Source: Pontibacillus chungwhensis (lineage in GTDB: Bacteria > Bacillota > Bacilli > Bacillales > BH030062). Taken from it: a stretch of DNA of 64,000 nt. The notes beneath the pieces are model-generated. The model did not search any database and had not been told where the DNA came from. It worked only from the letters and a program-made list of their open reading frames with translations. Every line of letters begins with the position of its first letter. Position 1 is the stretch's first letter. The position numbers and the translations under genes were made by a program. The DNA lies in the NCBI RefSeq assembly GCF_030166655.1, contig NZ_CP126446.1, positions 2,728,001 through 2,792,000 of the forward strand. The letters run 5' to 3'. Positions 1 to 24,410 of the stretch are shown here, piece by piece.

Positions 1-305
1 ATTGAATAATTCCTGAAATATTCTTCACTTCTAATATGATGGCGACGCGATTTGTAACAAGGAGGGTATCTATCTGGAATACTTTATCTCCATCCACGAT
101 CCGTAAATCATGAAAGATGTGGTACTGGCGATCATCAAGATAACTTAGAGGATAATCGAGTTCTTGCTCTCCCCAATAGCCAGCTCTTCTTTTACTAATG
201 CTCTTCATTACGGCAGATTTTTTCGGATGACGATAAGGTAATCTTTTTTCTAACACTTCTTCTTGTCTAAGTATGAAGGGGATGGTTCTCTTTTTTACGA
301 TCATG
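1..305 (-). CDS. NERD-domain protein, N-terminal part (truncated by window edge)
   Basis: The first 101 residues of a minus-strand gene are visible; the rest lies beyond base 1. The ATG at 303-305 has an upstream GAAAGGAGT ribosome site at 311-319. After a basic leader comes a stretch typical of the NERD (nuclease-related) domain: a WGEQEL motif near residue 45, then HDLRIV, FQIDTLLVTNRVAIILEVKN near residues 77-96. The D and ExK residues match the PD-(D/E)xK-like core of the family. NERD proteins are presumed DNA-processing enzymes but their job is generally unknown. It could be a stand-alone NERD protein, as is common in bacilli, or a fusion; the C-terminus is not visible. Confidence 0.75.
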
Positions 306-440: not shown

Positions 441-1146
441 TTTTGTTACTGCATTTGGGTTTCGTTTTAGACATTGCATCTTTGGTTTATGCACTACGAT
501 GCGGGATTTCTTCACTGCTCCTTACTTTTTCTGCAGTCCGGCGGGGATTTGGACACTGATGGCCGGCTTTCGACAGTACGGTCGCGCTTTCTTCACTGCG
601 CAGGCTGTTTCTACACTCCGATCCGGCTTTCTTCATGCCAACAGCTCTTTCTACACTCCGAGCCGGGCTTTCTTCACTGCTCCTCACTCTTTTTGCAGTA
701 CGGCGGTGGTTTGGACACTGATGGCCGGCTTTCGACAGTACGGTCGCGCTTTCTTCACTACGCAGGCTGTTTCTACACTCCGATCCGGCTTTCTTCATGC
801 CAACAGCTCTTTCTACACTCCGAGCCGGGCTTTCTTCACTGCTCCTTACTCTTTCTGCAGTCCGGCGGGGGTTTGGACACTGATGGCCGGCTTTCGACAG
901 TACGGTCGCGCTTTCTTCACTGCGCAGGCTGTTTCTACACTCCGATCCCACTTTCTACATGCCAAAAGCTCTTTCTACACTCCAAGCCGGGCTTTCTTCA
1001 CTGCTCCTCACTCTTTTCGCAGTACGGCGGTGGTTTGGACACTCCGATCCGGCTTTCTACACTCGGGTGGCGCTTTCTTCAGTCCCCAGGCTCTTTCCAC
1101 ACTCCGCCCCGTCTCTCTTCACTCCATCCCCGATTTCGACACTCCG
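441..1146. repeat. Tandem array of a 20-nt repeat with 162-bp higher-order unit
   Basis: About 35 consecutive 19-22-nt units fill this stretch. The plus-strand consensus is close to TTTCTACACTCCGATCCGGC, with TTTCTWCACTCC the most constant part. Eight successive units form a 162-bp higher-order repeat: the same phrase (CTTTCTTCACTGCTCCT) recurs at about 506, 668, 830 and 992, exactly 162 bp apart. The inner copies are nearly identical, while both ends are degenerate. Because 162 is divisible by three and the unit lacks stop codons in several frames, long open frames exist on both strands (for example 424-1275 plus and 487-951 minus). I regard these as artefacts of the repeat, not genes. The array lies between the 3' end of yqhY and the 5' end of the NERD gene. 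Confidence 0.9.
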
Positions 1147-1162
1147 CCCCACAAAACAAAAA

Positions 1163-1208: not shown

Positions 1209-1619
1209 TTACACGCCAGGGATCTCTTCTTCTTCGTCCTCTTTTGTTGGTTCCATTTGGATCCCTACGATGTGAACGTTGATTTCTTTAATTTCTAGGG
1301 CGGTCATATTTTTAAGGGCTTGGCGCGTGCTGTCTTGGATCTGCTGGGCTGTTTGTGGGATGGAGATTCCAAAGTCCATGACGACGTAGATATCAATGAC
1401 GATGCCTTCGTCTGACAGTTCAACTTTGATTCCTTTCCCGTGATTCTTCTTTCCGCCAAGACGTTCGGCTACGCCACTTGCAAAGTTACCGCGCATGGAT
1501 GCAACACCTTCGACTTCTGATGCAGCGATACCGGCAATAACTTCAATAACCTCTGGAGCAATTTCCACTTTACCTAAGCTGGAGTCCTCTCCAACATTTA
1601 ATAAATGATTTTCACTCAT
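1209..1619 (-). CDS. yqhY: Asp23/Gls24 family protein YqhY
   Basis: The product is a 136-residue Asp23/Gls24 (alkaline shock/envelope stress) family protein. The family core runs from GKVEIAPEVIEVIAGIAASEVEGV near residue 15 through the DIYVVMDFG strand to the EINVHIVGI strand near the end, followed by a short acidic tail. The GTG at 1628 overlaps the AAAGGAG ribosome site, so the ATG at 1619 is preferred. It is the last gene of accB-accC-yqhY, the usual Firmicute arrangement. In B. subtilis YqhY influences acetyl-CoA carboxylase activity, so a role in tuning malonyl-CoA supply is likely here. No signal peptide is seen; the protein should be cytosolic. Confidence 0.92.
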   Translation of the reverse strand: MSENHLLNVGEDSSLGKVEIAPEVIEVIAGIAASEVEGVASMRGNFASGVAERLGGKKNHGKGIKVELSDEGIVIDIYVVMDFGISIPQTAQQIQDSTRQALKNMTALEIKEINVHIVGIQMEPTKEDEEEEIPGV

Positions 1620-1637
1620 CTTGGTCACTCCTTTGTG

Positions 1638-13404: not shown

Positions 13405-14295
13405 TTATCCGCTCCAATGTCTTAAGAATGTAGTTGCATGTTTCTCTCCAACGGCAATCAATTTATCAATGGAACCTTCATTTAAATCAAAATCTGTCGT
13501 CTCCACGTCTTCTACCGGGATAAAAATAATATCAACCGCATCCTCTTTATGAATGTACCTCGCATCATGCGCTTGTTTCATCGTGACAAACAATGCTTGA
13601 AACATCTCAATTGCATTTTTAATCTTACGAGCCGGGATGTGATCATTGCCCTTACTGAGCTTCATCCCAAGGATCGGCCTCATCCGCCTTTCTAAATTAG
13701 AGGTAAACACCCAAATCGGAAAATTACTCAAAAGACCCCCATCGACTATCAGGCTTTTTTGGTGGCCTTTTCCAACCATTGGTTCTGGCATAAAAAAGTA
13801 GGGAAGCCCTGCACTCATTCGCACTGCTTTCGCCACTGTAAATTCATTCGGTGATATGCCGTAAACCCGTTCTAAATCATCAGGAATAACGACAATTCTT
13901 CCTAGCGTTAAATCGGAGGCAATTACTTTCAAAGATCCCTTCGGTAAGTCACGGAACGTATAGATGCCCTTTTTTCCTAGCACTTCATAAATCCAATCTT
14001 CTAATCGTTTCCCTTTATATAAACCCATCCGAAAATAAAGAAAGAGCCAGTTTGAGAACGGAAACCAATCACCAAATGTCGGAGGATCCAAAAGCTTCTT
14101 TAATTGTAATTCTTTAAATAACTGATGGATTTGTTCACTCTTATACCCGGCCGCGAGAAACGACGCCATAATAGCACCGGCAGAAGTGCCCGCAACTCGT
14201 TCAAATTGATAGCCTTTTTTCTCGACAGCTTCTATCGCTCCAATAAAGGCAATGGCTTTAACCCCGCCCCCTGAGAACACGCCATCAATCTTCAT
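13405..14295 (-). CDS. yqhO: Patatin-like phospholipase YqhO
   Basis: A 296-residue patatin-family serine hydrolase. The oxyanion glycine motif is GVFSGGGVKAIAFIGA at the N-terminus, the nucleophile elbow is GTSAG near residue 39, and the catalytic Asp is in VDGGLLSNFPIWVF near residue 185. It should hydrolyse lipid acyl chains; the true substrate is unknown. No signal peptide is seen. The repeat cluster at 14388-14692 lies upstream of its start. Confidence 0.92.
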   Translation of the reverse strand: MKIDGVFSGGGVKAIAFIGAIEAVEKKGYQFERVAGTSAGAIMASFLAAGYKSEQIHQLFKELQLKKLLDPPTFGDWFPFSNWLFLYFRMGLYKGKRLEDWIYEVLGKKGIYTFRDLPKGSLKVIASDLTLGRIVVIPDDLERVYGISPNEFTVAKAVRMSAGLPYFFMPEPMVGKGHQKSLIVDGGLLSNFPIWVFTSNLERRMRPILGMKLSKGNDHIPARKIKNAIEMFQALFVTMKQAHDARYIHKEDAVDIIFIPVEDVETTDFDLNEGSIDKLIAVGEKHATTFLRHWSG

Positions 14296-14387: not shown

Positions 14388-14692
14388 TTTTAGACATTTG
14401 GGAGCTGGTTTCTGTGTTCAAGAGCCGGGTTTCTACAATTCTTGGCTTTGTTTCTTCATATCGCTTCTGGCTTTCTACAGTGCGAGCGGACTTTGAACAT
14501 TCAGACTCCGCTTTAGACACTCCATACCCCATTTCTACATTCAATTGCTAGTTTCTACACTCCTATGATAAGTATCTTCATACACCTCAAGTTTTTCTTC
14601 ACTCCTATTCGGCTTTAAACACCACTCCCCCCTATTTATACACTCCAAGCCAGCTTTCTACACACCACACTCAGTTTCTACACTCCGCTCCT
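14388..14692. repeat. Second, degenerate cluster of the 20-nt repeat
   Basis: About 15 units of 19-23 nt occur between yqhO and mntR. Each begins with a variant of TTTCTACACTCC (for example at 14480, 14552, 14673). The plus-strand orientation is the same as in the array at 441-1146, but the units diverge and no higher-order period is seen. A 70-codon minus-strand frame (14332-14544) over it is explained by the repeat. Confidence 0.85.
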
Positions 14693-14719
14693 CTAAAAAG
14701 ACGCTCTTAAAGCATAAAA

Positions 14720-14743
14720 AAACACCTGAATCATCAGGTGTTT
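14720..14743 (-). terminator. Terminator of mntR
   Basis: AAACACCTGA / TCAGGTGTTT forms a 10-bp stem followed by T on the minus strand; the hairpin overlaps the mntR stop codon. Confidence 0.8.
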
Positions 14744-15176
14744 AGTCTTCTTTCGCTTGTTCTTCATTTTGTTGTTGAACGAGTCGCAATTGTTCAATGC
14801 ATTGAGGGTTTTCTTCGAAGAATTGAACCAGGTCACCGATACGGTCGATGGAATTCCAGCTCATATGGTGTTCAATTCCCTCTACATCTTCGTATATATT
14901 TTCTTTGTTCACGCCTATAATCTGTAAGAATTGCTCTAATAATTCGTGACGATACACGAGTCGCTTGCCAACTTTTTTCCCTTTAGAGGTTAGCACAAGT
15001 CCTCTATATTTTTCGTAATTCAGATACTGATCTCGGTCTAGCTTTTGTACCATTTTCGTAACAGATGAAGGATGGACTTGAAGATTTTCAGCGATATCTG
15101 AAACTCGTGCATAGCCTTTATCCTCTATTAGCATATATATTTGTTCAATATAATCTTCCATACTTGGTGTTGGCAT
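14742..15176 (-). CDS. mntR: Manganese-responsive regulator MntR
   Basis: A 144-residue DtxR-family repressor of Mn uptake. The winged helix is at residues 1-70 ([24 protein letters not shown]). All B. subtilis metal ligands are present at the same positions: Asp8, Glu11, His77, Glu99, Glu102, His103. It binds Mn(II) and then DNA at mntH/mntABCD-type promoters, none of which lie in this window. Asp8 indicates manganese rather than iron selectivity. Confidence 0.96.
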
Positions 15177-24053: not shown

Positions 24054-24256
24054 TAAAAAAACAGAGAAGGCACAATTCGTGTCATTCCCTGTCCATTCAC
24101 CAGAAAGTTTCGCAGTTTACTTGCTGCTTTCTTCTTGGGTGGCCTTCTATAGGCACTCTCCAGAGGTGCGTCCTACAAGAGTCTTTTTGCCTGAGAGATT
24201 CACATTGCTGTTTGCTCCTTCGGCGCCGCCTGAAATCCGCGGTCTCTCCTCTTGTA
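24054..24256 (-). ncRNA. Tandem glycine riboswitch with terminator expression platform
   Basis: Two aptamers occur on the minus strand. Aptamer I starts GGAGAGACCGC at about 24250 and includes GGCGGCGCCGAAGGAGCAAAC and GAATCTCTCAGGCAAAAAGAC. Aptamer II starts GGACGCACCTC at about 24170, contains GGCCACCCAAGA, and ends CTGGTGAATGGACAGGG. A terminator hairpin at 24061-24092 (ACAGGGAA pairing with TTCTCTGT, one G-U) with a seven-T run reuses the last aptamer II bases. Glycine binding should therefore block termination and switch on gcvT-gcvPA-gcvPB. Confidence 0.9.
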
Positions 24257-24410
24257 ATCATTCGCCATAATAATATTTTCATAAATGGTTCATACTAATT
24301 CATAAACGTTACGGAATAGTAAACACTAGTTTACAAATTCACTGTCATTATATCACACGGTTTTTACACTGTGCACAAAAATTTATTGCTTTTTAAAGGA
24401 AGGGTTATGC

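Follow-up and report, generated by a model that had tools for sequence, protein, structure and literature searches.

Intergenic arrays of 20- or 21-nt units follow replichore polarity in Pontibacillus and may be binding sites for a putative protein

Is the cluster of short repeats between yqhO and mntR, in the 64-kb stretch of Pontibacillus DNA analysed here (the window), a local duplication, or does it belong to a wider family with a role of its own? The cluster, array F, spans 14389..14694 on the plus strand and comprises 15 units of TTTNNNCANTNC, each followed by a spacer of 8-9 nt, with spacings of 20 or 21 only. Its first unit, TTTAGACATTT (14389..14399, plus strand), is at the end pointing away from the origin, and its origin-facing end is bordered by the mntR terminator hairpin (14718..14745, minus strand; read directly). 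The flanking genes, both on the minus strand, are mntR, coding for a manganese-responsive repressor (14742..15176; Fe_dep_repress, Pfam E-value 4e-25), and a gene coding for a yqhO-type patatin phospholipase (13405..14295; Pfam E-value 7e-35). Using a position weight matrix (PWM) trained without locus F from any of the three species described below, array F scored 145, whereas none of 1000 dinucleotide shuffles scored above 21. It was also recovered, with E-values down to 9e-7, in a whole-genome search with R1, a three-unit model built from other loci with no array F sequence in its training. No ORF of at least 80 aa was found over the array. The initial annotation of this region as a second cluster of a 20-nt family, with about 15 units in the same orientation on the plus strand, is therefore confirmed.

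The first cluster, array E (446..1153, plus strand), contains 35 units and scored 416, and a PWM scan of the window yielded these two arrays only. A TTTAGACATT unit is present at or beside the start of both, which bears out the claim that they share a unit near one end; the counterpart in array E of the first unit of array F is found at 466-476. Array E is flanked by an Asp23-family gene (1209..1628, minus strand; Pfam E-value 1e-35), with a terminator at ~1158-1199, and by the 5' part of a NERD-domain gene (1..304, minus strand; gene at C1:2727351-2728304). Both clusters had been described as filling the gap between the terminator of one minus-strand gene and the minus-strand gene that comes next. 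This is correct for E (Asp23/NERD) and F (mntR/yqhO) but does not hold as a rule for the other arrays of the genome, since array C is found between convergent genes, D between divergent genes, B and I between plus-strand genes, and A between minus-strand genes that are on the same strand as its core. Elsewhere in the window, a tandem glycine riboswitch is present at 24087-24261.

The motif family is larger than first reported. The genome of the window, that of a salt-loving Pontibacillus (G000), harbours nine arrays with ~265 units altogether, all of them intergenic. The core TTTCTACACTCC with at most one mismatch identifies seven clusters and the model adds two, one of which is weak; as the scans score limited candidates and motif patterns, arrays in other dialects may have been missed, including in G000. 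The dnaA gene is at position 340, and in twenty sampled stretches the GC skew and the coding strand switch sign between 2.085 and 2.10 Mb. The terminus was placed at ~2.09 Mb from the GC skew and gene strand; no dif site was found at up to three mismatches. The core is on the minus strand in arrays A (0.868 Mb), B (0.999), C (1.370) and D (1.541), and on the plus strand in arrays I (2.403 Mb), E (2.728), F (2.742), H (3.380) and G (3.825). Orientation thus switches at the terminus, with nine arrays out of nine matching their replichore and the core complement GGAGTGTAGAAA on the leading strand in every case. The rule extends to 11 of 11 with two loci present only in sister species, at G000 positions 0.814 Mb (minus strand) and 4.019 Mb (plus strand), a placement that assumes synteny. 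The corresponding p values are 0.004 with nine loci and 0.001 with 11, for a small sample in which the loci of the sister species largely coincide with those of G000 and are not independent. The genome scan and the comparison of replication with transcription that the initial annotation had proposed as a check thus support its view that the family is dispersed and biased in orientation, and not the outcome of a single duplication.

Array orientation tracks replication and not transcription. The core is on the strand of both neighbouring genes at A and I and opposite both of them at B, E, F, G and H, and it has convergent flanks at C and divergent ones at D, so that transcription does not explain the orientation. 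As for the neighbouring genes, no common theme emerged from their Pfam assignments at the nine loci: YtxH and TrpP (A), FabI and CotO (B), P450 and GMP reductase (C), aminotransferase and DEAD helicase (D), SpoIIP and a glyoxalase-family protein (I), NERD and Asp23 (E), patatin and MntR (F), hydrolase and SecG (H), and globin-coupled chemoreceptor and GlyA (G). Strand composition is a confounder of the orientation test, as it could on its own favour the observed orientation. The core is rich in C and T, its complement fits a G/A-rich leading strand, and arrays in the reverse orientation would have been lost or never retained, which would still allow a local function. The skew of the arrays does agree with that of the replichores. 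Nevertheless, both gene orientations occur in both replichores, making skew a weak force to account for nine out of nine, and the conserved anchors and spacing of the units require a separate cause. We regard this by-product explanation as rather improbable.

The architecture of the units was deduced from 28 arrays, in which 496 of 504 gaps are 20 or 21 nt, estimated with a flat prior over 15-26 nt. This spacing and the motif TTTNNN(C/A)ANTNC are kept across dialects. The conserved unit positions are T1, T2, T3, C/A7, A8, T10 and C12, with 1.6-1.9 bits of information at positions 1-3 and 8, 1.5 bits at position 10 and ~1 bit at positions 7 and 12. Position 11 holds 0.2-0.4 bits and the spacer 0.05-0.3 bits, positions 13-19 contributing little. 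No units were found on the opposite strand of the arrays, and a gradient of unit quality along them was not significant (p = 0.08). Intrinsic curvature from the phased TTT tracts, calculated with wedge parameters, did not consistently exceed that of shuffled sequences (z between -2.8 and +3.6). The spacers do show a trend in composition. Over all arrays of the three Pontibacillus species, G/(G+C) is 0.46 at the end that faces the terminus and declines to 0.28 at the end that faces the origin (p = 1e-4), spacers being C-rich near the latter and containing more G in the remaining units. The 21-nt units of G000 are mostly paired, and loci C, D and E have a common rhythm of six 20s and two 21s, or 162 bp per eight units, despite their differing sequences.

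These features bear on the readings of the arrays as coding sequence and as RNA. Long mechanical ORFs run across array E because the core strand has few stops, and one could imagine that the arrays code for repeats or are remains of coding ones. However, mixed 20- and 21-nt units keep no frame, and the higher-order repeat of array G measures 182 bp, which is no multiple of 3. The spacing pattern breaks every frame, and a coding repeat was rejected as having next to no chance of being correct. Alternatively, the repeats might be transcribed and serve as protein-binding RNAs or sponges, in the manner of CsrB with its GGA motifs. The complement does read GGAGTG..., and long non-coding intergenic repeats could be transcribed. 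Nonetheless, GGA is not conserved, as seen from the information at position 11, and we rejected a CsrA-type sponge on that basis. More generally, no RNA structure signal was detected on either strand of the arrays, nor any Rfam match to the array, the loci have no transcript orientation in common (A and I being sense and the five loci named above antisense), and units two helical turns apart make more sense for DNA than for RNA. A role as RNA is accordingly very improbable.

Higher-order repeats of 8 or 9 units point to recent block duplications; that of array E comprises eight units over 162 bp (6x20 + 2x21). Between recent duplicates, anchors differ at 1.5% of sites and spacers at 15.6%, and pairs of units with a single difference point in the same direction, with fewer changes in anchors than in spacers, although exchange between units, whose anchors are shared, may exaggerate this avoidance. 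The difference in duplicates indicates that the anchors are under constraint. Changes are not evenly spread as they would be in a neutral minisatellite, and with anchor changes about ten times fewer than spacer changes the arrays do not behave as one. In each of the three species array F is one of the most degenerate arrays, and it has undergone sequence turnover. The suggestion that this cluster is an older or selected form is therefore half supported. The degeneracy and turnover of F agree with it, selection on anchors is seen for all arrays pooled, and a greater age of F is conjectural.

Comparison with relatives shows that the places are more stable than the sequences. Both P. salipaludis (G005) and P. 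chungwhensis (G006) have arrays at A, B, D, E, F, G and H; an array at C is present in P. salipaludis, and locus I gives a weak, uncertain score only. At most loci the orthologous arrays are in the same place and orientation as in G000. The flanks align at ~85% identity right up to the arrays, while the arrays themselves do not align. Units of the relatives are mostly TTTCGTCAxTYC or TTTAGTCACTTC at A, C, D, F and H, and mostly TTTNGTAACTTC at B, E and G. The AA dialect of the sister species escaped the first pattern and was recovered only via synteny. Between G000 and G005, units differ at 10.4 of 20 positions in orthologous arrays and at 10.3 of 20 in unrelated ones, and units of different loci inside G000 differ less, at 9.1 of 20. 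Orthologous units are thus as unlike as unrelated ones, and those within a genome are closer, which indicates genome-wide dialects. In the five other species of the genus, out of eight, the model search detected no array, and one of these genomes, G003, is empty at loci B, F and G and at a GNAT locus. The function, if there is one, cannot then be essential. In two genomes (G001 and G007; L079, L080) an unrelated GC-rich repeat of the GGAGACTC...GCGGGA type is found downstream of mntR, in place of array F.

The strongest rival explanation is that of selfish or neutral satellite DNA. The repeats would have spread by slippage or by insertion into lagging-strand gaps, with anchors needed by the amplifying enzyme and no function for the host. 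Recent block duplications, the complete turnover of arrays between close species and their apparent absence from some sister species all agree with it, and insertion into lagging-strand DNA would yield the replichore orientation. G000 also possesses HUH (Y1) transposases. However, such transposases are equally present in array-free species. PF01797 is found in each of the nine genomes, whether or not they have arrays, and does not track the arrays, and HUH/RAYT mobilisation was rejected for this reason. No hairpin of the HUH or REP/RAYT type was found either, array F having no inverted repeats and the arrays no folding signal. Furthermore, most loci are fixed across the three species, with little sign of current movement, and a neutral minisatellite would not keep its anchors ten times more constant than its spacers. 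Satellite DNA devoid of host function is in our view unlikely, yet it deserves serious consideration.

The reading that we prefer, although tentatively, is that the clusters form a dispersed family of phased, polar binding-site arrays for a putative protein with a role at the scale of the chromosome. We estimate its probability at about 0.45. A protein binding head to tail would need what the arrays offer, namely one site per two turns in a constant phase, with free spacers and matched polarity. Each unit would represent one asymmetric site, TTTNNN(C/A)ANTNC, across about one helical turn, and with the next site 20 or 21 bp further on, all sites would lie on one face of the helix, two turns apart. 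A putative sequence-specific DNA-binding protein might load head to tail, probably cooperatively, onto the array. Changes of dialect would result from homogenisation of the arrays together with a change in that protein. As polarity matches the replichores, the process in question would run from origin to terminus. It is less certain which one it is, and the assembly might act in segregation, chromosome organisation or polar fork handling; we do not propose regulation of a single gene as its role. The conservation of loci combined with changed motifs across sister species suggests an undescribed chromosome-wide protein-binding system.

Known systems share some of these traits. Origin iterons of plasmids and phages are direct repeats of ~17-22 bp phased two turns apart, and the arrays have the same direct-repeat length and phasing. 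They differ in having no adjacent rep gene or origin, in being many per chromosome and in being oriented by replichore. The parC centromeres of ParR, such as that of pSK41 with its 20-bp repeats, are direct repeats that are bound cooperatively, and their families diverge widely in repeat sequence as well as in spacing, with recognition being cognate (PMC9426499). The arrays likewise consist of direct repeats of similar length in a 10/20-bp phase (496 of 504 gaps), and the variation between parC families resembles the Pontibacillus dialects. In contrast, parC is a single plasmid cluster beside parMR, whereas there are 9-11 chromosomal arrays of ~8-53 units each, whose units share anchors but not spacers. 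No parM or parR gene is present next to the arrays, the neighbours being unrelated chromosomal genes. The KOPS/SRS octamers of FtsK/SpoIIIE are oriented on the leading strand and switch at dif (PMC2680272). Array orientation also switches at the terminus, but those octamers occur singly over the whole chromosome, unlike a few dense, helically phased arrays. The arrays, 10.9 kb in total, contain no SRS octamer GAGAAGGG and a single KOPS GGGNAGGG; the DnaA-box/parS sites TTATNCACA and TGTTNCACGTGAAACA are absent from all arrays. Ter sites, the fork traps of Tus or RTP, are polar protein sites oriented by replichore and gathered toward the terminus. Polarity is set by replichore in the arrays too, but these are multi-site and not near the terminus, the nearest ones (1.541 and 2.403 Mb) being ~0.3-0.55 Mb off. 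Finally, minisatellites or VNTRs have tandem head-to-tail units, higher-order repeats and fast turnover in common with the arrays, but neutral VNTRs lack anchor retention, strict 20/21 spacing and replichore orientation. The arrays therefore combine traits of ParR centromeres and of FtsK/SpoIIIE motifs and lack a defining feature of each. They can be viewed as a variant of phased, polar site arrays, with a predicted protein, binding and role. No prior description of them was found in the literature searched.

If they are protein sites, the arrays would be to the chromosome what centromeres are to plasmids, or a counterpart of polar guide motifs, as well as a bacterial satellite DNA evolving in concert at fixed places, a pattern for which eukaryotic centromeres are the usual example. 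Their function is directly testable, given nine defined loci, a measured spacing rule, and sister species of which some have arrays and others do not.

Beyond the genus, a scan for the TCACCAAT dialect was empty in 397 genomes of the order. In phages and plasmids, array E had no blastn match and the AA dialect no match; among viral contigs there was a single isolated three-unit match. Those pattern matches outside Bacilli that were inspected seem mostly to be plain 20-21-bp tandem repeats with near-constant spacers, and they were not taken for relatives. Among 399 genomes of the class, the triple-anchor pattern is prominent only in G000 and in G531 and G730, which both belong to a second genus. 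In addition, in several arrays of Lederbergia panacisoli (G397; L125, L309-L311), TTTCAYCAATTC units recur at 21 nt, with 22 every five units; the architecture is that of the Pontibacillus arrays, in a different dialect. In G531 and G730 the unit is TTTCGTCATTC followed by a free 10-nt spacer, and units are 21 nt apart. They form a dispersed element in which a 29-nt centre separates four units in direct orientation from four inverted ones, with identical spacing in five elements, a geometry that would be expected of protein sites. Both types of element may be relatives of the Pontibacillus arrays or convergent. It is tempting to speculate that a chromosome-wide system exists in Bacilli, in which a polymerising protein would read direction from phased arrays with variable spacers at a few loci per replichore, motif and protein changing together to give dialects specific to species and locus, with the Lederbergia arrays and the 4+4 elements as related or convergent forms; this broader proposal is, however, doubtful. 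As for the elements of G531 and G730 (L297, L299, L301, L303, L305), their spacers are not obviously complementary, and several of them are located between convergent genes.
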